This document shows positions 8,366-25,625 of a stretch of 35,233 bases of DNA, piece by piece. The stretch spans positions 1-35,233 of the forward strand of contig JACQCH010000035.1 of assembly GCA_016201735.1 (NCBI GenBank), in the 5' to 3' direction. Below the pieces are notes generated by a model. It had not been told where the DNA came from and did not search any database. It was given only the letters and a program-made list of their open reading frames with translations. This stretch comes from Candidatus Omnitrophota bacterium. Lineage in GTDB: Bacteria; Omnitrophota; Gorgyraeia; 1-14-0-20-64-10. The stretch's first letter is position 1; every line of letters starts with the position of its first letter. The position numbers were made by a program, and so were the translations under genes.

Positions 8366-10630
8366 TTATGGGTGATGAGCGGCGGGATGCCGGGAAGGCG
8401 GGCCGGACCGGTGGGGTTCCCGGGGACGTTCACCCGAACGTTCCCGGCCTGGACCCCCGCGCCCATAATCTCCACCGGGTCGGCCGCTCCGCTCGGGGCG
8501 CCGGGCCGGAGGAATCGGCGCCGTTCCCGGCGGAAGGAGCGCCTGCTTGTGGCTCAAGTTGACCCGGCCTTGCGAGTCGATCTCCACCACCTTGACAGAG
8601 ATCGTGTCCCCCAATTTCACCACATCTTCCACCTTCGGAACAAACTGGTCGGACAGTTCCGAAACGTGGCAGAGCCCCTCTTTGCCCGGGGAGATCTCGC
8701 AGAAGGCCCCGAAATTCGTGATCCGCTTCACGATCCCCTGATAGACCTTGCCGATCTCCGCCTCTTCGGTCAATCCCCTGATGAAGGCGATCGCCTTCTG
8801 AGCGGCGGCCGCGTCGGCGGAGGCGACCATCACGGTCCCGTCATCCTCCACGTCGATCGAGGCGCCGGATTCCTGCGTGATCCTGCGGATCATCTTTCCG
8901 CCGGGGCCGATCAACTCCCCGATCTTCTCCGGATCGATCTTGAGCAGGGTAATCCGCGGAGCGAAGGGAGAGAGCTCCGGCCGATAGGCCGGGAGGGTCG
9001 CTAAGACCCGCTCCAGGACAAATTCCCGGGCCGGCTTGGACTGCTTGAGGGCTTCCCCTAACAGTTCCACGGGAATACCGGTCAGCTTCAAATCCAGTTG
9101 AAGCGCCGTGATCCCCTTGGCCGTCCCCGTCGCCTTGAAGTCCATGTCTCCGAAGTGGTCCTCGAGTCCGATGATGTCGGTCAAGATCACCGATTGATTC
9201 CCCTCCCGGACCAACCCCATCGCGATCCCCACCACCGGCGCCTTGATCGGCACCCCCGCGTCCATCAGGGCCAGCGTCCCCCCGCAGACCGTGGCCATCG
9301 AGGAGGACCCGTTCGATTCCAGGATCTCAGAGACGACCCGGACGGTGTAGGGGAATTGTTCCTTCAAGGGCATCACCGGCCTGAGGGCTTTCTCGGCCAG
9401 CGCCCCATGCCCGATCTCCCGGCGGCCCGGCCCCCGAACGGGGCGGATCTCTCCGACGGAGAACGGGGGAAAACTGTAATGAAGCATGAACGACTTGAAC
9501 GATTTCCCCTTGAGGGCGTCGATGATCTGCTCATCGGAAGCGGTCCCCAGCGTCGCCGAGGCCAGCGACTGCGTCTGCCCCCGCGTGAAAAGGCCCGATC
9601 CGTGGGTCCGGGGCAGGACCCCCACTTCACAGGAGATGGAACGGACCGTCGTCAGGTCCCGGCCGTCGATGCGCCGGCGTTCTTTTAAGATCATCTGGCG
9701 AACCAGGGTCCGCTCCAGATCGTCGAGATCTTCTTCCACCTGCGATTCGGTCAGAGTTCCTTCCGGGGTCTGGAACTCCTTGACCAGCTGTTCGACAAGG
9801 ATCTTTCTCTCATCGGAGCCCCCTTCCTTCTCGCTCCGAGAACGAAGCTCCTCTTTCACCTGATGCTCGGCCCGCTGCTGGATCCGTTGGGAAAGCTGGG
9901 CATCCGCTTTCTGAAGCGGAAGGGAAACCTTGGTGACTCCGCAGGCGGCGATCAGTTCTTCCTGCAGATCCATGCTTGCCTTCCCTTGTTCCTGCGCGAA
10001 ACGAATCGCTTCCAGGATAGTTTCCTCGGGAACCTCTTTCGCTCCCGACTCCACCATCAGCACCCCATCCTTGGTCGAGGCGACCACCAGATCCAGGTCT
10101 CCCTGTTCGATCTCGGCATAGGTGGGGTTGAGCACAAAGGAACCATCGACCCGTCCGACCCGGCAGGCCCCAACCCGGTGAACCACGGGGCTCGTGGAGC
10201 AAAGCCCTAAGGCGGTGGAGGCCCCGATGATCGCCAGGATGTCGGGATCGTTGGCCCCATCGTGAGAAAGCACCAGGGCAATCACCTGAACCTCGTTAAA
10301 GAATCCCTTGGGGAAAAGGGGGCGGATGGGGCGGTCCACCAAGCGGGAGGTCAAGATCTCCTTCTCAGAGGGACGGCCTTCCCTTTTAAAGAAACCTCCG
10401 GGGATCTTCCCCGCCGCGTAGGTCTTCTCCTGATACTCCACCGTCAGAGGGAGGAAATTCTTCCCCTCCTTCGGCTCCTTGGAGATCACCGCGGAAACCA
10501 GCACCACGGTCCCGCCGTACTGGACCATCACGGAGCCGTCGGCCTGCTTGGCCATCCGGCCCGTTTCCAAAATTAAGTCTTCTTTGCCGTATCGTTTCTG
10601 GACACGGCGCACCATCTTGTTAGCGGTCAC
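8366..10630 (-). CDS. pnp: Polyribonucleotide nucleotidyltransferase (PNPase)
   Basis: Phosphorolytic 3'-5' exoribonuclease and RNA tailing enzyme of the mRNA decay machinery. The 754-residue protein has the standard order: first RNase PH domain, an alpha-helical linker (about 240-310), second catalytic RNase PH domain (FTRGQTQSLASATLG and the GDMDFKATGT segment), then a KH domain with IGPGGKMIRRI (about 567-627) and an S1 domain (about 628-703). A Gly/Arg/Pro-rich tail ends the protein. The start is GTG at 10628-10630, with AGGAGG five bases before it; an ATG five codons in is less well placed. It follows rpsO, the common bacterial order, with a palindromic repeat between them. Confidence 0.97.
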   Translation of the reverse strand: MTANKMVRRVQKRYGKEDLILETGRMAKQADGSVMVQYGGTVVLVSAVISKEPKEGKNFLPLTVEYQEKTYAAGKIPGGFFKREGRPSEKEILTSRLVDRPIRPLFPKGFFNEVQVIALVLSHDGANDPDILAIIGASTALGLCSTSPVVHRVGACRVGRVDGSFVLNPTYAEIEQGDLDLVVASTKDGVLMVESGAKEVPEETILEAIRFAQEQGKASMDLQEELIAACGVTKVSLPLQKADAQLSQRIQQRAEHQVKEELRSRSEKEGGSDERKILVEQLVKEFQTPEGTLTESQVEEDLDDLERTLVRQMILKERRRIDGRDLTTVRSISCEVGVLPRTHGSGLFTRGQTQSLASATLGTASDEQIIDALKGKSFKSFMLHYSFPPFSVGEIRPVRGPGRREIGHGALAEKALRPVMPLKEQFPYTVRVVSEILESNGSSSMATVCGGTLALMDAGVPIKAPVVGIAMGLVREGNQSVILTDIIGLEDHFGDMDFKATGTAKGITALQLDLKLTGIPVELLGEALKQSKPAREFVLERVLATLPAYRPELSPFAPRITLLKIDPEKIGELIGPGGKMIRRITQESGASIDVEDDGTVMVASADAAAAQKAIAFIRGLTEEAEIGKVYQGIVKRITNFGAFCEISPGKEGLCHVSELSDQFVPKVEDVVKLGDTISVKVVEIDSQGRVNLSHKQALLPPGTAPIPPARRPERSGRPGGDYGRGGPGRERSGERPREPHRSGPPSRHPAAHHP

Positions 10631-10657
10631 AAAATCCTCCTATTGATTAATAATTGG

Positions 10658-10734
10658 GTCATTTCGAGGCCTTCAGGCCGAGAAATCCCGTCTTTAAAAG
10701 TGTGATCTCTCGCCACTTCGTGGCTCGAGATGAC
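10658..10734. repeat. Double-hairpin palindromic repeat between rpsO and pnp
   Basis: GTCATTTCGAG at the left faces CTCGAGATGAC at the right. Two imperfect hairpins lie inside: TTTCGAGGCC-TTCA-GGCCGAGAAA, and ATCTCTCGCCAC-TTC-GTGGCTCGAGAT. The layout resembles paired REP elements. Read in the operon mRNA it sits where other bacteria carry a processing hairpin upstream of pnp. Confidence 0.75.
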
Positions 10735-10746
10735 AGTGGGGAGCGT

Positions 10747-11016
10747 TTATTTTCGGAGATTCAGGCGTTCTATGATCTTCTGGTATTCCGGGCGGGCGCT
10801 CGTTTTCAGGTATTCCAACAGCTTTCGACGCTGGCTGACCAGCTTCAGGAGGCCCCGCCGAGAATGGTGGTCCTTCCGATGAGCTTTAAAGTGCTCCGTC
10901 AGAAGATTGATCCGCTCAGTCAATATGGCGATTTGAACCGGCGCCGAGCCGGTATCCATTTGATGCGTCTGAAAGTCGCGGATGAGTTTTTCTTTCTGTT
11001 CTTTTACGAAAGGCAT
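10747..11016 (-). CDS. rpsO: 30S ribosomal protein S15
   Basis: Primary 16S rRNA-binding protein of the small subunit platform. The 89-residue product has the full S15 signature: [22 protein letters not shown], then the loop [19 protein letters not shown] with the rRNA-contacting HH/SRRGL residues, and the final helix [12 protein letters not shown]. The frame is open to 11103, but the ATG at 11014-11016 gives exactly the family length; the upstream part would overlap ribF and has no S15 similarity. It lies 23 bases after ribF and precedes pnp. The Shine-Dalgarno is weak, so it may depend on coupling to ribF. Confidence 0.97.
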
Positions 11017-16026: not shown

Positions 16027-16108
16027 GTCATTGCGAACAACCAACGGGAGTGAAGCAATCTCTCTTTAAAAACGAGATTGCGTCGTCGCTGTCGCTCCTC
16101 GCAATGAC
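16027..16108. repeat. GTCATTGCGA..TCGCAATGAC palindromic repeat before the nitroreductase gene
   Basis: GTCATTGCGA (16027-16036) and TCGCAATGAC (16099-16108) are exact complements, with GAAGCAATCTC facing GAGATTGC inside. It is the same family as 20114-20193. The nitroreductase-like reading frame opens 26 bases to its right. Confidence 0.85.
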
Positions 16109-16134: not shown

Positions 16135-17202
16135 TTGGAATCCCTCGTCCAAAAAGGGATCTGGGCACCCTCCGGAGACAACCTCCAACCCTGGAAATTT
16201 CGCATCGAGCAGGACTCGATTCACCTCTACCTCGACCCCTCACGCCTTATGGGGATTCTGGATGCCGGCTGGCGGGCCCCTTACATCTCGGCCGGTGCGG
16301 TGATTGAGAATATCGCCCTGGCCGCTTCCCATGGGGGGCATGCGGCTTCTGTCCGCTGCTTCCCGCAAGGAGAGGATCTTTCCTCACCGGTGGCCACCCT
16401 CACGCTGAAGGACTCCGATCTCCCCGAGGACTCCTTGTACCCTTTCATTGAATCCCGCGTGACGAATCGAAAGCTTTACACTCACCGGCCGGTGCCGGAA
16501 AAAATCGTGCAGGCCCTTTCTCAAATCGGAAACATCCCCGGCCAGACACGTTTTTTTCCCATCAGGCCTGGGCCCATCAAGAGAGAACTCGCCCCTCTTA
16601 TGGGAAGGGCAGACCAGATCCGCTTTGAAGAGGAAACTGCCCATCGCGAGTTCTTCAAGGCCGTCCGGCTCGAGAAAGAAGAGATGGAAAGAACGAGGGA
16701 TGGTTTGGATGTTCGCGCATTGGGGCTAGGCCCGATGGGTTATCCCTTCTTTCGCCTCATCTCAAAATGGAATCGGCTGCGTTTTCTCAACACGCTGGGC
16801 TTGAGCCATTCCATGGGCCTCTTCGCCCAACTGCAGGTGAGGGGCTCCCCTCTCCTGGGGCTTCTTGTGGCGGAGGAAAGTTCTCCTTCGGGCTACGTCG
16901 CGGGGGGGCGAGTGATGCAGCGCCTCTTCCTGAAGATCGCCCAAGAGGGCCTGGCGGTCCAGCCGATGACAGCCCTGTTGGTCTTCATCATAAACCTTCA
17001 GATCAACCAGGCAAAAAATTTTTCCAGCCGACATCGGGCGCAACTGACGGCTCTAAAAAAAGAACTCTTCCAATTATTCGACCTCAACGACCGCCACGGG
17101 TTGGTCATGCTGTTTCGGCTGGGCTACGCCGCACCCCCGACCTGTCGGTCCCTGCGTCGACCCCTTTCCGATTTCCTTATCGCTGCAAAGGATTCTTCGT
17201 AG
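16135..17202 (+). CDS. Nitroreductase-like (Acg/Rv1355c-type) FMN protein
   Basis: The opening IWAPSGDNLQPWKF is the flavin-binding signature of nitroreductase-fold proteins of the Acg/Rv1355c type. It is followed by NRKLYTHRPVP, a central helical region with a TLGLSHSMGLF segment, and near the end a AGGRVMQRLFLKIAQEGLAVQPMTALL helix typical of the fold's core. Such proteins are predicted to bind FMN; substrates are unknown. Some relatives are fused to a ThiF domain, and a separate ThiF-like gene lies 5 kb away. The only start in frame is TTG at 16135, without a Shine-Dalgarno and 26 bases after a palindromic repeat, so the true N-terminus may have been displaced. An ATG inside the repeat would reach this gene only through a frameshift. 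Confidence 0.7.
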   Translation: MESLVQKGIWAPSGDNLQPWKFRIEQDSIHLYLDPSRLMGILDAGWRAPYISAGAVIENIALAASHGGHAASVRCFPQGEDLSSPVATLTLKDSDLPEDSLYPFIESRVTNRKLYTHRPVPEKIVQALSQIGNIPGQTRFFPIRPGPIKRELAPLMGRADQIRFEEETAHREFFKAVRLEKEEMERTRDGLDVRALGLGPMGYPFFRLISKWNRLRFLNTLGLSHSMGLFAQLQVRGSPLLGLLVAEESSPSGYVAGGRVMQRLFLKIAQEGLAVQPMTALLVFIINLQINQAKNFSSRHRAQLTALKKELFQLFDLNDRHGLVMLFRLGYAAPPTCRSLRRPLSDFLIAAKDSS

Positions 17203-17207
17203 AGACT

Positions 17208-17617
<410 letters not shown>

Positions 17618-17630
<13 letters not shown>

Positions 17631-18166
17631 CACAACCGGGAGATTTTCCATCGGGCAGGTGGGATCTCACCAGCTTCACCATGGGAGCCCATCACCTTCC
17701 TGATCTGGAAACGGTATCCCGCGTCGTAAAACAGATGGATCGAATCACTCAGCCAGAAGGCCTCGTCATGGTGATGGATGTGGCTCGTCTGCGCACGGCA
17801 AGGTTTACAGAGCACTACGTGAAGTTCATGGGTCGCGATCATTTGAAACGTGGGCTGAAGAAACTCTTCGAGGATTTTCATCATTCGATGTACGCTGCCT
17901 GGACAACGAGGGAATTTAAAACCGTCGTCCCTCCCGCTTCTACCCGTCGGTGGTGCCGTCTCGTTCCCTTCGGGTTGCCCACCGTGCAGATCCTCCTGGG
18001 GTTGCCAGTGGGCCGCAAGCGTGTTTTCATTCGCCCTGGATTTTCTGCACAAGAAAACCCCCTCATTCGAGAATGGGCGCCTCGTTGGGCGAAAGAGAAC
18101 GGGCTGCAGTGGACGAAGGAATCCCTCGCGGAGTTCTCTTTGCTGCGATGGGGGCTCTTCTTATGA
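17618..18166 (+). CDS. SAM-dependent methyltransferase, C-terminal part
   Basis: This frame continues the methyltransferase after the AG tract; just before the listed TTG it reads EVHFELGDV, which fits motif III of class I methyltransferases. Then come WDLTSFTMGAHHLPD (motif IV region), ITQPEGLVMVMDVARL (motif V/VI) and a basic, helical C-terminal third. No convincing independent start exists, so translation would need a corrected or slipped frame upstream. The stop overlaps the ATG of the ABC ATPase as ATGA, which indicates the intact gene is part of the operon and that the break is recent, reversible or artefactual. Confidence 0.7.
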
Positions 18167-18843
18167 GCATCATCCGAGTTGAGGGAGCAACCAAGGAATA
18201 TTACCTGGGGAAGACCGTTGTCCCCGCCCTCAGAGGAGTTGACCTCCAGGTTGAGAAAGGAGAGTTCTTGGCGATTGCGGGACCTTCCGGGAGCGGGAAA
18301 ACAACTCTCTTGAATCTGATCGGCTGCATTGAGAAACCCTCCGCCGGAAAAGTCTCGATCGACGGGGTCGATACAGCTCACCTGACCAGCGATGAACTGG
18401 CCGATTTAAGGGCAACGAAGATCGGCTTTATCTTTCAGAACTTCAACCTTCTCCCCGTGCTCACTGCTCTGGAGAACGTGGAATATCCACTCTCGATAAG
18501 GAAGATCCCTGCCCGCGAAAAGAGGCGGAAGGCCCGGCAGCTTCTGGAAGCCGTCGGGCTTTCCCGGTTTCTCCATCACAAACCGCTGGAATTAAGCGGC
18601 GGCCAGAGGCAACGGGTGGCCATCGCGCGGGCGATGGTGGCCGACCCTGCGATGATCCTGGCCGATGAGCCCACCGCCAATCTGGACCACACCACAGGGC
18701 AGGAGATCCTCAATCTTATGAAACAGATGAATGCGGAACGAAAAACCACCTTCCTCTTCTCCACCCATGATCCGAAGGTTATGGCCATCGCCCAGCGGGT
18801 CGTTCCATTGTCGGATGGAATTGTGGCGGACCCGCAGCGATGA
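18163..18843 (+). CDS. ABC transporter ATP-binding protein, LolD/MacB type
   Basis: A 226-residue ATPase with all motifs: Walker A GPSGSGKT (40-47), Q-loop Q92, signature LSGGQ (144-148), Walker B ILADEP (165-170) and H-loop His202. It belongs to the LolD/MacB/FtsE group, which powers mechanotransmission by FtsX-fold permeases rather than bulk transport through the membrane. ATGA overlaps join it to the methyltransferase before and the permease after, so the pair forms one transporter. By analogy it extracts a lipid or lipoprotein from the inner membrane. The longer frame from 17950 is not supported. Confidence 0.92.
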   Translation: MSIIRVEGATKEYYLGKTVVPALRGVDLQVEKGEFLAIAGPSGSGKTTLLNLIGCIEKPSAGKVSIDGVDTAHLTSDELADLRATKIGFIFQNFNLLPVLTALENVEYPLSIRKIPAREKRRKARQLLEAVGLSRFLHHKPLELSGGQRQRVAIARAMVADPAMILADEPTANLDHTTGQEILNLMKQMNAERKTTFLFSTHDPKVMAIAQRVVPLSDGIVADPQR

Positions 18844-20111
18844 CCTTCACGCTCGCTCTGCGGAACGTCTTCCGCCACAAGACCCGGTCGATCATCACGC
18901 TTTCCACCGTGGCGTTTGGCTGCGTCGCCCTGATCTTTGTCGGGGGATTCTTCGAGGACACTTTCTACAAAATGCGGGAAGGATACATCCGGTCGTATGC
19001 CGGACACCTCCAGGTCTTCAAACAGGGCTTCCTCGAAAAAGGGGCCGCCAAACCCTTCGACTATCTCATCGACAACCCCGGGGAAATCATCACCCTCATT
19101 CAAGGGATCGAGGCGGTGCAGTACGTCACTCGCCGAATCGAGTTCGCAGGTCTGATCAGCACCGGAGAGAACTCCACTTCCTGCATTGGGCAAGGAATCG
19201 AGCCGAAAAACGAGCGCTCGGTTCGCCAGTCGGACGTTGAGAAACAGTTCCAGTCCAGAGGGGACCTTTCCCTTTTAGTGGGAAACGTCATCGAAACAGG
19301 GGACCCTTTAAAGGAGGACGAGGGGTTTGCTGTCCTTTTGGGAAGGGGGTTGGCCTCGAGCCTTGGCGCACAGGTGGGGGACGGATTGATCCTTGTCTCC
19401 CATACGATCGGGGGCTCGATCAATGCCGTCGATGTCTCGCTGAAAGGGACTTTTTACACCAGCACCAAGGACTTCGATGATCATTTCCTTCGCCTTCCGC
19501 TGGCAGGAGCCCAGAAATTGCTTCATACCGATTCGGTGCAGTCTCTCGTGATTCTGCTAAAAAAGACGGAGGATACCGCCCGGGTTAAGGCGGAGTTAAG
19601 GCATCTGTTCCAAGAGAAAGGCCTGGCCCTTGAACTCAGGGATTGGGAAGAGATCAACGACTTCTACACAAAGACCCGGGCATTATTCGGGCGATTCTTT
19701 CTGATCCTCAAGCTGGTCGTCGCCATCATCGCTATCCTGGGGATCTTCAACACCATGAATATGGCCGTCCTGGAAAGGACGGCGGAGATTGGGACCCTCA
19801 TGGCCCTCGGAACCAAGCAGAAAGGGGTGGCGGCTCTTTTTCTCATGGAAGGAGGCATTCTCGGCGCCCTGGGAGGAGGGATCGGCATCATCGCCGGCAT
19901 TGGAATCACCCGCCTGATCGCCTCCATCGGCATCCCCATGCCGCCTCCTCCGGGAGCGACGATGCGGTGGGTTTCCGAGCCGATGATCGTTCCCTGGACG
20001 ATCCTCTTTGCCTTTGCGCTCTCGATGGCGGCTTCTCTCCTCTCTTCTTTCTATCCCGCCTACAAGGCCTCGCGGCTTGAGATCGCCCAAGCGCTTCGGT
20101 ACGCCGGATGA
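18840..20111 (+). CDS. ABC transporter permease, FtsX/LolC-E type
   Basis: A 423-residue permease with the LolC/LolE/MacB plan: one N-terminal helix (about 17-38), a large periplasmic domain (about 40-285), then three helices (about 285-310, 330-355 and 385-410). The FtsX domain core ILGIFNTMNMAVLERTAEIGTLMALG is typical. A single permease gene is present, so the transporter is probably a homodimer. The neighbours, a LolA-like periplasmic carrier and an outer-membrane barrel, suggest that the cargo crosses the periplasm to the outer membrane. It is translationally coupled at both ends by ATGA. Confidence 0.92.
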   Translation: MTFTLALRNVFRHKTRSIITLSTVAFGCVALIFVGGFFEDTFYKMREGYIRSYAGHLQVFKQGFLEKGAAKPFDYLIDNPGEIITLIQGIEAVQYVTRRIEFAGLISTGENSTSCIGQGIEPKNERSVRQSDVEKQFQSRGDLSLLVGNVIETGDPLKEDEGFAVLLGRGLASSLGAQVGDGLILVSHTIGGSINAVDVSLKGTFYTSTKDFDDHFLRLPLAGAQKLLHTDSVQSLVILLKKTEDTARVKAELRHLFQEKGLALELRDWEEINDFYTKTRALFGRFFLILKLVVAIIAILGIFNTMNMAVLERTAEIGTLMALGTKQKGVAALFLMEGGILGALGGGIGIIAGIGITRLIASIGIPMPPPPGATMRWVSEPMIVPWTILFAFALSMAASLLSSFYPAYKASRLEIAQALRYAG

Positions 20112-20893
20112 TTGTCATTGCGAGCGTAGCGAAGCAATCTCGTATTGGGATTGCTTCGGCCTGCTTCGTTTCACTCGCAGTCCTCGCAATGACGATGGCC
20201 GCTTTCGCCGCGGAACCAACGGCGGAGGAAATCCTCCGGAAGGCAGATGAGGTCCGGAACCCCCCGTTGGACTACACCGTTTCCGTCAAGGTGACCAGCC
20301 TCAAGCCGCAGGGAACTCCGAAGACAGCCGCCTACGACGTTCTCGTTAAGGGAAAGGACCGGACGGTGATCAAGACATTAAGCCCTCCGGTCGAAAGGGG
20401 TCGGGTCCTCTTGATGAGGGGCAAAGACATGTGGGCTTTTCTTCCGGACGTCTCCAAACCTCTACGAATCTCCCTGCGGGAGCGGCTGATGGGAGAAGTT
20501 GCCAACGGAGACCTGGCCCGCGCGAATTTCACGGGTGATTACACCCCGGAAATTCTCCGAGAGGAAGAGGCGGACGGAAAGGAATGCTACGTCCTGCAGC
20601 TCACGGCCAATGCTGAGGATGTAACTTATGCCAGAGTGGTCCTCTGGGTTGAGAAAGAATCTTTCCGTCCTTACCGAGCAGAATTCTACGGATTGTCCGG
20701 GCGGCTCTTGAAGAGCTGCTCCTACCAGGAGTATCGGGAATTGGGCGGCCGGCCCAGACCCACCCGCTTGGTGATGGAAGATCCGATCGTCAAGGGAAAG
20801 AGGTCCATCATCGAGTATGACCAGATGAATGTGGAGCCGCTCCCGGAGAAATATTTCACCAAGGATTACATGAAGAAATTCATGGAGGGATAA
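20108..20893 (+). CDS. LolA-like outer-membrane lipoprotein-sorting protein
   Basis: A 261-residue exported protein of the LolA/LppX-like fold: TAEEILRKADEVRNPPLDYTVSVKVTS, then alternating strands with KGKDRTVIKTLSPPVERGRVLLMRGKDMWAFLP and a C-terminal IVKGKRSIIEYDQMNVEPLPEKYFTKDYM. Family members carry lipids or lipoproteins through the periplasm in a hydrophobic half-barrel. The signal peptide (cleavage near AFA-A, residues 33-36) is unusual: codons 3-28 are the translation of the repeat at 20114-20193, so VIASVAKQS and ACFVSLAVLAMT come from repeat DNA. The ATG overlaps the permease stop, and no other start could give a signal peptide. Predicted partner of the ABC transporter just upstream. 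Confidence 0.87.
   Translation: MIVIASVAKQSRIGIASACFVSLAVLAMTMAAFAAEPTAEEILRKADEVRNPPLDYTVSVKVTSLKPQGTPKTAAYDVLVKGKDRTVIKTLSPPVERGRVLLMRGKDMWAFLPDVSKPLRISLRERLMGEVANGDLARANFTGDYTPEILREEEADGKECYVLQLTANAEDVTYARVVLWVEKESFRPYRAEFYGLSGRLLKSCSYQEYRELGGRPRPTRLVMEDPIVKGKRSIIEYDQMNVEPLPEKYFTKDYMKKFMEG
20114..20193. repeat. GTCATTGCGA..TCGCAATGAC repeat forming a signal peptide
   Basis: GTCATTGCGAGCGTAGCGAA at the left and TCCTCGCAATGAC at the right form the outer stem; GAAGCAATCTCGTATTG faces GGGATTGCTTC inside. It is the same family as 16027-16108. The whole element lies in the first 29 codons of the LolA-like gene and is translated. Confidence 0.9.
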
Positions 20894-20897
20894 CTTC

Positions 20898-22337
20898 CTG
20901 CCTCGGAGAACGGGCTTCTTTCTTCTGCTTTGGCTGGCATTCTCTCTCCTGCCCTCTCGCGCCTTCTCGGAGCCATCCCCTTCGAGTGACGCCGACCGGA
21001 AGCTGCGGGAGCAGATCATCGACATCTGTGTGGAGACGATCCGCAGCCGGCAAACAGAACCCTGGCCTGTCCAAGAGCCAACTCCTCCTCAAAGAACAGC
21101 CGCTGAGAAACCCGAGGGCTTTGAAGTCCGCCTCCATGGGCAGATGAAGAACGAAGCGGCCTTTCGAGTCAATTCTCCAACCGGTTGGACCAAATTGAGA
21201 AACCAACTCCTCCTGGCCCAAATCGGCCGTTTCTCCGACGATCTTCGCTTCAAGGCGACCGAGAGGGCCACTTATGACCCGGTCTATGATCTAACCCATA
21301 CCTTTCCAAACAGCGCCCGCTCCGACCAGCGGGTGGAAGCGGAGTTTCGCGACACCTATCTGGACTATTCCAAAGGCCCCTTTGACCTCCGTCTTGGCAA
21401 GCAGCAGATCGTCTGGGGAGAGGCGGTGGGGCTCTTCTTTGCCGACGTGGTAAACGCAAAGGATCTCAGGGAATATGTGCTGCCTGATTTCGACCTGATC
21501 CGGATTCCGGATTGGGCCGCCGATCTGGAATATTCCCGGGAAAACGCCCATCTGGAGTTTGTCTGGATCCCGGCGCCGGAGTTCAACAGGATCGGGGGGG
21601 ATGGTTCCGAGTTTCAATTTCCGCTGCCTCTGCCGACTCCAACCACTCCCTTTACTCGGCAGGATCCCCTCGAGCCGGGGAATCGCCTTGGGAATTCCGA
21701 GCTGGGGGGACGGGCCTCTTACCTGATGAACGGCTGGGACATGGGACTCTTCTACCTGTACACCTGGGATAAGGCGCCGGTCTATTTCAGAACAATCGAC
21801 CCATCCGGCCGCTATAACTTCACTCCCGGATACAAACGGCTTCACGTCGCCGGGGCCACCATTTCCAAAGAGGTTGAGAAAGCCGTTTTCAAGGGGGAGT
21901 TTGTCTTCAACAAGGATGCCCACTTCTCCATTCTCGACCCCGCCGATTCCGACGGAGTCACGGAGCGGGACTTCCTCGACACTCTGGTCGGCGCCGATTA
22001 CACCTTCTTCGAGAAGTGGGAGACAAACCTCCAATTCATGCATCGGATCATCTTCCATCACTCGGGTCTTTTGGCGGAGAACGAACATGCCGTCCGGAAC
22101 TCCATCTCTTTTTGGCTCAGAACCGACTTCTTCAACGGGAGGATCAAGCCCGAATTCCTGGTGATCTCCAGTTTGATGGAGCCGGATTTTCTTTACCGGC
22201 CCAAGCTCAACTGGAAGTTAAACGACCGCTGGCACCTTCGTTTCGGGGCCGATCTGTTCCGGGGAGTTGCGGACGGGACGTTCGGAAAGTTTAAGGGGAA
22301 GAGCCGAGTCTATTCAGAAGCCGTCTTCGAATTCTGA
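20898..22337 (+). CDS. Outer-membrane beta-barrel protein, DUF1302-like
   Basis: A predicted outer-membrane barrel. LRLGKQQIVWGEAVGLFFADVVNAKDLREYVLPDFDLIRIPDW is the hallmark region of DUF1302-type proteins, and amphipathic strands continue to a C-terminal phenylalanine (EAVFEF), as needed for BAM insertion. An ATG-initiated reading would begin at 21030 and lack a signal peptide. Upstream in the same frame lies MPRRTGFFLLLWLAFSLLPS-RAFS (numbered from a CTG at 20898), a good signal peptide, and GGAGGG sits eight bases before that CTG; no ATG, GTG or TTG is available. I therefore infer a CTG start and 479 residues. Likely outer-membrane end of the Lol-like system. The 3' end overlaps the convergent ThiF-like gene by 28 bases. 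Confidence 0.82.
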   Translation: MPRRTGFFLLLWLAFSLLPSRAFSEPSPSSDADRKLREQIIDICVETIRSRQTEPWPVQEPTPPQRTAAEKPEGFEVRLHGQMKNEAAFRVNSPTGWTKLRNQLLLAQIGRFSDDLRFKATERATYDPVYDLTHTFPNSARSDQRVEAEFRDTYLDYSKGPFDLRLGKQQIVWGEAVGLFFADVVNAKDLREYVLPDFDLIRIPDWAADLEYSRENAHLEFVWIPAPEFNRIGGDGSEFQFPLPLPTPTTPFTRQDPLEPGNRLGNSELGGRASYLMNGWDMGLFYLYTWDKAPVYFRTIDPSGRYNFTPGYKRLHVAGATISKEVEKAVFKGEFVFNKDAHFSILDPADSDGVTERDFLDTLVGADYTFFEKWETNLQFMHRIIFHHSGLLAENEHAVRNSISFWLRTDFFNGRIKPEFLVISSLMEPDFLYRPKLNWKLNDRWHLRFGADLFRGVADGTFGKFKGKSRVYSEAVFEF

Positions 22338-23185
22338 CGAAATTGTCTCACCAGCAGCCATCGCTTGAGGCGCTGAAGCGGATGGCGGTTCCCGCCAAGG
22401 AGCTTGCCCTGGATCCAACGCCCCAGATAGGGATCGAACTGTTGATAGAATGGGGCGGGACGGACCGAACCCCGATGGAGAAGAATCTTCAATGTTTCCG
22501 CGGCCGCCGCTCCGGCAGCCAGTTGGCAGGCTAAACTCGCGGAAGGTCCCGTATGGGCTTTGACGTCCACGGCCGAACGATCGAGGTAGGCCCGATGAGT
22601 TGCTGCCGGGGCCAACCCGATGATGAAAGCGACGAATTGACCCGTCTCATCCATTCCATCGGATAAATCGAAATACCGGTCGAAGCTCATCCCGCCCGGA
22701 TCGAACACGATCCAGGCCGTGCTGAACCCCAAGGGGCCGGCAGTCACTGCGTAGATGCCGCGGGCCGCGGCAGCGCGAAATAAGAGGCGGCGGGCCTCGA
22801 TCTCGAAGGCATCGATTCCGTCGATGAAAAGATCGGCCTCCTTCAGGAACTGCTCGGCATTGTCGGGGCCGATGGGATCGGTAAAAATGCGCAGGTCGAT
22901 TCCCGGGTTGATCTCGCGCGCCATTTCGGCCAGCACCTCAACCTTTAGGCGGCCCAGGGTGGATCGCGTGGCTCCCTGCTGCCGGTTAAAGTTGGCAACC
23001 TCGAACCGATCCGGGTCGGCGATCGAGAAGCGGCCGATGCCCAGCCGCGCCAACGTCACGAGGTGGATTCCGCCTACGCCCCCCATTCCTGCAATCGCCA
23101 CTCTGCAGGAGCGCAGCCTTTGCTGTTCCTCAGGACGGATGAGCCCCCGGTTTCGACGGAAGGCCTCTTCGTAGGACCAATCCAT
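22310..23185 (-). CDS. ThiF/MoeB/HesA-family E1-like adenylyltransferase
   Basis: A 291-residue E1-like enzyme with the nucleotide-binding GMGGVGG (33-39), D57, the arginine-finger segment NFNRQ (65-69), K81 and IDGID (D122, D125). These residues activate a carboxyl group by adenylation. It lacks the CxxC zinc pairs of ThiF and MoeB and shows no cysteine at the usual catalytic position (only Cys27 and Cys220), as in the TcdA-like or Rv1355c-like branches. No ubiquitin-like partner protein is encoded in the window, so the acceptor is more likely a small molecule. It follows the PilZ-FeeM pair by 20 bases in one operon. Product unknown. Confidence 0.85.
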   Translation of the reverse strand: MDWSYEEAFRRNRGLIRPEEQQRLRSCRVAIAGMGGVGGIHLVTLARLGIGRFSIADPDRFEVANFNRQQGATRSTLGRLKVEVLAEMAREINPGIDLRIFTDPIGPDNAEQFLKEADLFIDGIDAFEIEARRLLFRAAAARGIYAVTAGPLGFSTAWIVFDPGGMSFDRYFDLSDGMDETGQFVAFIIGLAPAATHRAYLDRSAVDVKAHTGPSASLACQLAAGAAAAETLKILLHRGSVRPAPFYQQFDPYLGRWIQGKLLGGNRHPLQRLKRWLLVRQFRQNSKTASE

Positions 23186-23205: not shown

Positions 23206-24414
23206 TCAGGAATCGGGGTAACAGGATTTAAGATGCACCCGGGCCGTCTCGGGCAGCTTCTCCCAAAGGGGCCGAGTTTCCATCAGGAGCTCATGGACCG
23301 TCTCGGGGGTGAAGCGGTAATAAGTCTCCAAGGTCTCCTTGGGCGTGGTGTGGCGTATGAAATAAGATCCCTTCCCCTCCTCCTGAGAGATAGATGCCAC
23401 TGTCCTTGGGATGTCCATCCGCATAGGAAGCGCCGGCTTCCCGCAAGCCCCCTCATAGGACCGAACGGCGCCGATCCGTTCAAAGGTCAGATACCGGTAA
23501 AGGGTCTCATGTTTGGGATGCATGCCGATCACCAAATCGGTCACACCGGCGACAAACCGGGCGTGGTCGAACATCAGTTTGAATAACCGGAAGAGACAGG
23601 CCTGTTTTTGGAAGCTGGTCAAAGAAAAGAAGGTCTTTCCGATGGCGCTTAGATCCAGAGCCAATAAGCCCACTTCAGCCAGGCGTCTCCCCTGCGCCCT
23701 GAACCTTCCGATCTCTTTCGGGAAAAGAGATTCCATCGGAAGCCCGCAGGGAGAATCCACAATCAGGCTGATGGTTCCGAACAGCTTATCTTCTCCCTTC
23801 AAAATGAACGTGCAGGTGCCGGGCAGGACACTGAAAAAGTTGTACTGCATCTGGGATGGGTTCGGCTGGCAGTATCCCCGGGCCAGGTACTCTTTGTAGA
23901 CCAGACGGTAAGCTGATTTTAGTTCCTCCAAAGTTTCCGCGGGGCGGCAGACCAGCTTTGAGGTGGACTCCAAGGCAAGTTGGCAAATCTTGTCGGCGAT
24001 GAAGGCGATCAGCTTTTCTTTCCGGGAGACCCTCTTTAAGTCTTCGAAGGCGATTCCGCATGAAGTCAGGCCGGTGCTGAAGGAAGGGACCACCCAAACA
24101 ACGACACCCCGGACCCGCACCGGTTTGGCGGAATCCGACACCTTTATCTTGATCTCAATCCAGGAGCCGATCGTAACCACCGCGGGAATCATGAGCCGGG
24201 CGCCGTTTTCAGAAAGGTTCATGGTGCGCCCCCTCTTGAATGGGACATCTTCTTCCAGGATTCGATAATCCACCGGCACGCTCATGGAAACACGGGAGGT
24301 TCCTCTCTTCTCGATGAGGGAATCGCTCGTGACGGCGGTCTCACTGCTGAAGATGCTCTCCTCTAAGACGGCTATTCCTGATTCCCAATGTTCCCGCTTA
24401 AAAAAAAGGTTCAT
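23206..24414 (-). CDS. PilZ domain fused to FeeM-like N-acyl amino acid synthase (copy 1)
   Basis: A 402-residue protein. Residues about 35-130 form a PilZ domain with both c-di-GMP motifs intact: RGTSR (37-41) and NLSENG (66-71). Residues about 140-330 resemble the FeeM/LuxI-like GNAT-fold synthases that join an acyl chain to an amino acid: AYRLVYKEYLARGYC, then LAEVGLLALD and VIGMHPKHETLYRYLTFERIG. The last ~70 residues (FTPETVHELLMETRPLWEKL) are a helical tail also found in the paralogue. The start is the ATG at 24412-24414, overlapping the upstream stop as ATGA; the longer frame reads into the neighbour. The tandem paralogue differs mainly at the N-terminus and linker. Confidence 0.85.
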   Translation of the reverse strand: MNLFFKREHWESGIAVLEESIFSSETAVTSDSLIEKRGTSRVSMSVPVDYRILEEDVPFKRGRTMNLSENGARLMIPAVVTIGSWIEIKIKVSDSAKPVRVRGVVVWVVPSFSTGLTSCGIAFEDLKRVSRKEKLIAFIADKICQLALESTSKLVCRPAETLEELKSAYRLVYKEYLARGYCQPNPSQMQYNFFSVLPGTCTFILKGEDKLFGTISLIVDSPCGLPMESLFPKEIGRFRAQGRRLAEVGLLALDLSAIGKTFFSLTSFQKQACLFRLFKLMFDHARFVAGVTDLVIGMHPKHETLYRYLTFERIGAVRSYEGACGKPALPMRMDIPRTVASISQEEGKGSYFIRHTTPKETLETYYRFTPETVHELLMETRPLWEKLPETARVHLKSCYPDS

Positions 24415-25625
24415 GCGGTCAGCCCCGGGTAGCATGTCTCTAAGTGCGCTCGACAGACAGGGGACAACTGATCCCACAGGGGACGTTTCTCTTTGAGAAA
24501 CTGGCGCACCGTTTCTTCAGTCCAGTGGAAGCGCTTCTCGAGGATTTCCTTCGGCATCGACTCTCGCAAGAAATAAAACCCTTTTCCGTGATCCATCAGA
24601 GTGGTTTCTTCTGTCCTTCGGATATCCATCCGCATCGGGAGCGCCGGTTTCCCGCAGGCGCCCGGATAGGATCGGACAGGCCCAATGGCTTCAAAGGTCA
24701 GATAACGGTAGAGCACTTCATGCTTCGGATGCATGCCGATCACAAGATCCGTTGCTCCTACGATAAATCGAGCGTAATCGAACATCACCTTAAAGAGACG
24801 GAAAAGGGATGCTTGTTTCTGAAAATTCGTCAGAGAAAAGAGCCGGGCACTCTTTCCAATCGCCTCCAGATCCAGCGCCAATAAACCCACTTCCGCCAAG
24901 CGCCTACCGGGATTACGGAGTTCGGCGATTTGTTCCGGGAAAAGGGTCTCCATGGGGAGCCCGCACGCCGAGCCACCCATGAGGGAGATCGTTCCTAAAA
25001 GCTGACCCTTCCTCTCCAGGATGAAGGTGCACGTTTCCGGGAGAAAGCAGTAGAAGTTGTAATGCATCTGGGACGGGTTCGGCTGACAATAGCCCCGAGC
25101 GAGATACTCTTTGTAGACAAGGCGGTAGGCGGCTTTCATCTCTCCCAAAGATTGGGCTGGACGAGCCGTGAGGTCAGAGATGGAGTGGAGAGCAAATTGG
25201 CACAGTTTGTCCGCTATAAAGGCCGTCAGCCGTTCCTTGTTGGAAACCCGTCTTAAATCCTCAAAGACAACTCCACACTGAACGGTTGAACGGTGGCCAA
25301 CGAAAGGAGCCACCCAGACCACGGTTCCTTCCGTCTGGAAAGGCTTGGGTATATTCGGCAGCTTCATCTCTAAATCGATCCGGGCCCCGACTGAAATGGG
25401 CGGAGTCACCGACAGCCGAACCCCGGATTGAGAGAAGTTCGCTTTCTTCGCCTGTTTCCAGTCCCGCCCGTTTCCCTGAACCCGATAAAGAACCGGCACA
25501 CTTAAGGAGACACGGGTTGCCCTTCTCCTTTCTTCAGAAAGCTGATCTCCAAGATCTAACCTCTGCCCAACGCTTGTTTGCCAGCGTCGTTTTAGATTGT
25601 TAAGCCATCCCATATTGTTTTCCAT
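24411..25625 (-). CDS. PilZ domain fused to FeeM-like N-acyl amino acid synthase (copy 2, first in operon)
   Basis: A 404-residue paralogue of the next gene, same architecture: PilZ at about 33-130 with R34-x3-R38 and NFSQSG (63-68), and the FeeM-like catalytic domain at about 140-330 (AYRLVYKEYLARGYCQPNPS at 166-185, LAEVGLLALD at 243-252, VIGMHPKHE at 295-303). In FeeM-type enzymes this fold uses acyl-ACP; the amino acid cannot be read from sequence. Long blocks are identical between the copies, so the duplication is clear, but the N-termini and several loops differ enough to suggest distinct substrates or signals. First gene of a three-gene operon behind a promoter at 25699-25727. The ATG has no strong Shine-Dalgarno; another ATG lies four codons in. 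Confidence 0.86.
   Translation of the reverse strand: MENNMGWLNNLKRRWQTSVGQRLDLGDQLSEERRRATRVSLSVPVLYRVQGNGRDWKQAKKANFSQSGVRLSVTPPISVGARIDLEMKLPNIPKPFQTEGTVVWVAPFVGHRSTVQCGVVFEDLRRVSNKERLTAFIADKLCQFALHSISDLTARPAQSLGEMKAAYRLVYKEYLARGYCQPNPSQMHYNFYCFLPETCTFILERKGQLLGTISLMGGSACGLPMETLFPEQIAELRNPGRRLAEVGLLALDLEAIGKSARLFSLTNFQKQASLFRLFKVMFDYARFIVGATDLVIGMHPKHEVLYRYLTFEAIGPVRSYPGACGKPALPMRMDIRRTEETTLMDHGKGFYFLRESMPKEILEKRFHWTEETVRQFLKEKRPLWDQLSPVCRAHLETCYPGLTA

Follow-up and report, generated by a model that had tools for sequence, protein, structure and literature searches.

Tandem PilZ–FeeM fusion genes in an Omnitrophota genome encode predicted N-acyl amino acid synthases that may be regulated by c-di-GMP

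The window considered here is a stretch of 35,233 nucleotides from a Candidatus Omnitrophota bacterium (a 1.81 Mb assembly, 95% complete), and it contains a gene cluster spanning approximately 16.1–25.6 kb (Table 1). At one end of the cluster, two adjacent genes each encode an N-terminal PilZ domain (Pfam E-values of 8.4e-11 and 1.5e-11 in the two copies) and, C-terminal to it, a FeeM domain (3.3e-40 and 3.3e-39), with every match exceeding its curated cut-off; as members of the FeeM-type synthases the two proteins score 137.9 and 134.7 bits against 27. The likely start of the downstream gene, an ATG at 24414, overlaps the stop of the upstream gene as ATGA, and translational coupling is thus probable. 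The GTG start listed for this copy (24477) was rejected, as it lies inside the upstream gene with a 67-base overlap and ATG 24414 fits. The ThiF gene starts 20 bp past the second synthase gene in the same run, while ~190 bp upstream of the synthase pair there is a secretin gene that belongs to a type II secretion-like run. A scan for promoters gave a result close to background, and shuffled sequences contained more terminator-like sites.

Table 1. Features of the cluster, in window coordinates.
Feature	Position	Strand	Remarks
Palindromic repeat, copy 1	16027–16108		
Nitroreductase-like flavoprotein	16135–17202	+	APSGDNLQPW motif; start uncertain
SAM methyltransferase	17211–18166	+	frame change across (GA)22 run; start uncertain
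(GA)22 run	17547–17590	+	in methyltransferase gene
ABC ATPase, LolD/MacB type	17950–18843	+	PF00005, 1.2e-34
FtsX/MacB-type permease, LolC/E-like	18840–20111	+	PF02687, 2e-18; PF12704, 7.2e-12
LolA_like periplasmic carrier	20108–20893	+	PF17131, 9.6e-53; only PF17131 match in genome
Palindromic repeat, copy 2	20114–20193		
DUF1302 outer-membrane beta-barrel	21030–22337	+	PF06980, 2.3e-18; convergent with ThiF gene
ThiF/E1-like adenylating enzyme, PRK08223 family	22310–23185	-	PF00899, 4.7e-47; NF006077, 444.6 bits (cut-off 266)
Downstream PilZ–FeeM synthase	23206–24414	-	402 aa from ATG 24414
Upstream PilZ–FeeM synthase	24411–25625	-	404 aa; PilZ ~32–138, helix 129–150, FeeM 165–334, catalytic Glu245

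The original prediction was confined to the synthase pair; the ThiF gene in the synthase run and the adjoining nitroreductase, methyltransferase and Lol-type genes, all recurrent with FeeM elsewhere, extend it. The Lol-type export set (ABC ATPase, FtsX/MacB permease and LolA-like carrier) is complete in the window and repeated in relatives, and the ThiF-like enzyme is predicted to activate a carboxylate. In the listed reading frame of the ATPase gene the ABC domain does not start until about residue 94, so the true start lies later. The (GA)22 run in the methyltransferase gene reflects either phase variation or a slip in the assembly. The second copy of the palindromic repeat encodes most of the signal-peptide-like stretch at the N-terminus of the LolA-like protein; the longer palindrome pattern, allowing up to 2 mismatches, occurred once in the genome, and the repeat at 20114 is not a high-copy element here.

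Both synthases carry the RxxxR and [DN]xSxxG motifs of c-di-GMP-binding PilZ domains (PF07238), as RRATR and NFSQSG in the upstream copy and RGTSR and NLSENG in the downstream copy. The original claim that PilZ is N-terminal in both proteins and keeps RxxxR and NxSxxG intact is thus borne out by the Pfam matches and by the motifs read in both ORFs, and with an intact double motif each PilZ domain is predicted to be competent for c-di-GMP binding, as had been proposed. On the catalytic side, the Glu of an LAEV motif aligns with the catalytic Glu of FeeM in a sequence match to PDB 2g0b (3e-18), and this residue, Glu245, is kept in 31 of the 32 related rows of the alignment. Structures were predicted from two separate alignments; the combined alignment of PilZ-only and FeeM-only sequences misaligned the PilZ C-terminus. 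Two AF2 models of the upstream copy had a mean pLDDT of 83 and pTM values of 0.75 and 0.81, figures that speak for the individual domains rather than for the placement of PilZ on FeeM or a gating interface. In a Foldseek search with the model, FeeM (2g0b) ranked first (4e-13), Rv0998 was a weak fold match, and cellulose synthase BcsA, solved with c-di-GMP (4p00), was matched over ~95–103 columns, the size of its PilZ domain. This match, together with the AF2 strands at residues 39–121, identifies a PilZ beta-barrel fold.

The two window copies share 60% identity over 369 aa, which rules out a recent assembly duplicate. By region, identity falls from 75% in FeeM and 68% in the linker helix to 46% in the C-terminus, 40% in PilZ and 27% in the N-terminus. 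The divergence is therefore not restricted to 'N-termini and loops', since the whole PilZ domain has diverged. The copies are sisters in the tree (support 100/97) and are lineage-specific duplicates. With catalytic domains this similar and sister positions in the tree, the view of them as two specialised enzymes is weak, and the stronger difference is in the sensor. Because the sensor has diverged faster than the enzyme, a difference in the c-di-GMP levels to which the copies respond is more likely than a large difference in their products. FeeM genes stand in tandem at two other loci as well (L098 and L105); in L098 (4492–7661) two pairs, each of a separate PilZ gene and a FeeM gene, follow one another, an independent duplication. 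The clade (100/100) to which the window copies belong also contains the other two fusions (L033 and L034) as well as L035. In the last of these, on a contig labelled Obscuribacterales, a FeeM gene of the fused clade (9899–10819) lies beside DUF1302, LolA, LolD and FtsX genes. L035 lacks PilZ, yet keeps a stretch resembling the joining helix between PilZ and FeeM, which suggests that PilZ was lost from a fused ancestor; the contig may be mis-binned.

The association of the two domains extends well beyond the window. A FeeM match was found in 45 of 384 genomes of the class, but the other eight genomes in the source's own family had no match; the relatives named in the genome scan were all labelled Omnitrophota except one. 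Among the 28 other class genomes with clear FeeM (match E below 1e-15), 25 have a separate PilZ gene directly upstream of the FeeM gene, mostly at a spacing of ~-16 to +65 bp, and fusions occur in the window and in two more distant Omnitrophota (L033 and L034). Of 41 FeeM loci, 30 have PilZ either upstream of FeeM or fused to it, and the pairing recurs in nine families of the class. The 22 genomes with the pairing that were used for the estimate have 8 to 30 PilZ matches each, corresponding to a chance of ~1% per gene of a PilZ neighbour, although these genomes were selected with the linkage already known and are mutually related, so that a binomial figure is not to be taken literally. The domain E-values and the class-wide pairing exclude a chance origin: the PilZ–FeeM association is real and conserved. 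Both arginines of RxxxR are present in all 27 aligned FeeM-linked PilZ rows, and the strict double motif is present in 20, with Gly replacing Ser in five. Control PilZ domains retain the motif about as often (RxxxR in 27 of 28), and its conservation therefore indicates competence rather than special selection. At one locus (L095, 8124–8885) two consecutive PilZ genes precede FeeM and adjoin a response regulator.

FeeM loci repeatedly hold ThiF-like, nitroreductase-like, LolA-like and DUF1302 genes, together with either a MacB/Lol-type ABC transporter or an MMPL/RND pump. Within 9 kb of FeeM in the 41 loci we counted PilZ in 30, AAS-type ligase/acyltransferase genes in 19, LolA-like in 18, DUF1302 in 18, ThiF in 13, response-regulator-type in 12, ABC ATPase in 11, FtsX in 10, and nitroreductase-like and MMPL genes in six each; the counts are lowered by the many contigs that end near FeeM, and some response-regulator and ABC ATPase matches may be unrelated genes, as both profiles are broad. 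The profiles were seeded with window and locus sequences, with a Pfam check on examples. LolA_like has 1–2 copies per genome; of the 20 genomes tested that carry it, 13 have it no more than 9 kb from FeeM. Nitroreductase homologues occur near ThiF or FeeM in L034, L095, L105, L109 and L100, and in L034 the PilZ–FeeM, nitroreductase, ThiF, LolA, FtsX, LolD and DUF1302-like genes are co-directional over 7.2 kb. AAS-type genes adjoin PilZ–FeeM in L086 (7038–9746) and L092 (9791–12787), and similarly in L088, L103 and L107; the L086 and L092 proteins combine AMP-ligase, carrier-protein and PlsC-type domains and are plausible sources of acyl-ACP, a possible built-in acyl donor. No AAS-type gene was found near FeeM in the window cluster, where acyl-ACP would thus come from fatty acid synthesis. 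In a plasmid search no relative reached 80% coverage of the query, and the best matches were proteins annotated as ThiF-family whose N-terminal part resembles FeeM. A long ThiF-annotated protein that starts with a FeeM-like part, on a Nitratidesulfovibrio plasmid (L121, 9992–12916), lies among XrtA/PEP-CTERM genes, with a PilZ gene ~5 kb away.

Proteins with the same two domains have been described. Nas343 and Nas354, metagenomic N-acyltyrosine synthases with FeeM and a C-terminal PilZ, are active in E. coli, Nas354 requiring Glu103, and control by c-di-GMP was put forward by the authors as a proposal only (Thies 2016; PMC4897644). PilZ is N-terminal in the window proteins, in which the Nas354-type order (FeeM, then C-terminal PilZ) was not found. 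FeeM itself (PDB 2g0b) shares the catalytic fold, motifs and catalytic Glu at ~28% identity, but has no regulatory domain. NasP and Rv0998 are instances of a nucleotide second messenger controlling a GNAT-type acyltransferase, as we propose for the window, but the messenger is cAMP rather than c-di-GMP. To our knowledge, neither has a PilZ domain. NasP is activated by cAMP, according to work cited in PMC4897644. HfsK of Caulobacter, a GNAT-family N-acyltransferase, binds the ligand proposed here, but its site has been placed in a GNAT domain and the C-terminus rather than in a PilZ domain, it acts on the holdfast, and the ligand inactivates it (PMC5362036). Matches to the PRK14852 and PRK08223 families show FeeM and ThiF parts united in one 989-aa family, as on the Nitratidesulfovibrio plasmid, whereas in the window they are separate genes and FeeM carries PilZ. 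The Ame monoterpene efflux system resembles the window in pairing a DUF1302 outer-membrane protein with a LolA-superfamily periplasmic protein, and it exports an apolar compound, but it has DUF1329, an RND pump and no synthase where the window has LolA_like and an ABC permease (PMC6394551). Our search covered the open-access literature (subscription papers were outside its scope), where we found no PilZ–FeeM with an export cluster, nothing on PilZ with an N-acyltransferase or on Omnitrophota and c-di-GMP, and no experiment on c-di-GMP control of N-acyl amino acid synthases after the Nas354 proposal of 2016. The combination of PilZ and FeeM is thus already known; the novelty lies in the opposite domain order, the tandem arrangement, the pairing throughout the class and the associated export genes.

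We propose, with moderate confidence and from sequence comparison, that the tandem pair codes for N-acyl amino acid synthases under c-di-GMP control, and that their product is tailored and exported. Judging by its family and intact catalytic residues, the FeeM domain would N-acylate an amino acid, with acyl-ACP as the donor of the long-chain acyl group. The PilZ domain would bind c-di-GMP through RxxxR and NxSxxG and may alter the activity or location of the synthase through the joining helix; by analogy with BcsA and NasP, activation is the slightly preferred direction. The genome encodes eight GGDEF domains, so c-di-GMP is probably made in the source organism. The ThiF, nitroreductase-like and methyltransferase proteins probably tailor the acyl amino acid, and the ABC transporter, LolA-like carrier and DUF1302 barrel (the last two of families expected to handle lipid) probably take it to the outer membrane or outside the cell. 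Counting against this proposal, the synthesis and export genes of the window lie on opposite strands and converge, and in L035, a close relative, FeeM and the export genes are present but PilZ is absent.

That the proteins are real synthases in which PilZ merely docks or scaffolds the enzyme (at the membrane, the ACP donor or the export machinery), with catalysis not gated by c-di-GMP, seems to us unlikely. The occurrence of the domain in some loci as a partner gene and in others as part of a fusion, the change of Ser to Gly in the second motif of five of 27 rows, and the faster divergence of PilZ than of FeeM would all fit such a role, but ligand residues are dispensable for a pure scaffold, and here both arginines persist in every row and both window copies retain the full double motif. 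It is distinctly unlikely that FeeM contributes a single step to the synthesis of a membrane aminolipid, in which PlsC-type O-acylation would follow N-acylation and the transporter would only insert a structural lipid into the outer membrane. Aminolipids are indeed made in two such steps (PMC11631085), and AAS-type genes, which in the two examined encode PlsC-type domains, lie near FeeM in almost half of the loci. Such a gene is, however, absent from the window cluster and from L034. We also know of no aminolipid route that involves ThiF or a nitroreductase, which speaks against this reading.

We regard it as very unlikely that the product serves a PEP-CTERM/exosortase pathway rather than Lol-type export. 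PEP-CTERM-like proteins adjoin PilZ–FeeM in L004 and L005, a FeeM–ThiF fusion lies among XrtA/PEP-CTERM genes on the Nitratidesulfovibrio plasmid, and such a role was reportedly proposed by Craig in 2011 for N-acyl amino acid synthases in general; against this, exosortase (PF09721) was not found in the source genome (95% complete), and LolA, DUF1302 and transporter genes are frequent in loci with enough flanking sequence.

Returning to c-di-GMP-regulated synthesis with export, we tentatively picture, as a possibility somewhat short of an even chance, a conserved system scattered across the Omnitrophota in which synthesis of a tailored N-acyl amino acid lipid is switched by c-di-GMP through PilZ and the lipid is exported to the surface by dedicated Lol-like or RND machinery with a DUF1302 barrel; in this lineage sensor and synthase would have been fused, and the fusion duplicated into copies that differ in their sensors. 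The placement of PilZ at the other end of FeeM, its presence as a neighbouring gene in many families, and the duplicated fusion make c-di-GMP control directly testable, and the window synthases are small and probably soluble. The gene content of the cluster further suggests that N-acyl amino acid lipids have an export route of their own, and that c-di-GMP has an output in a phylum known almost only from metagenomes. If this is true, a signal of surface lifestyle would control a lipid of almost unstudied bacteria.
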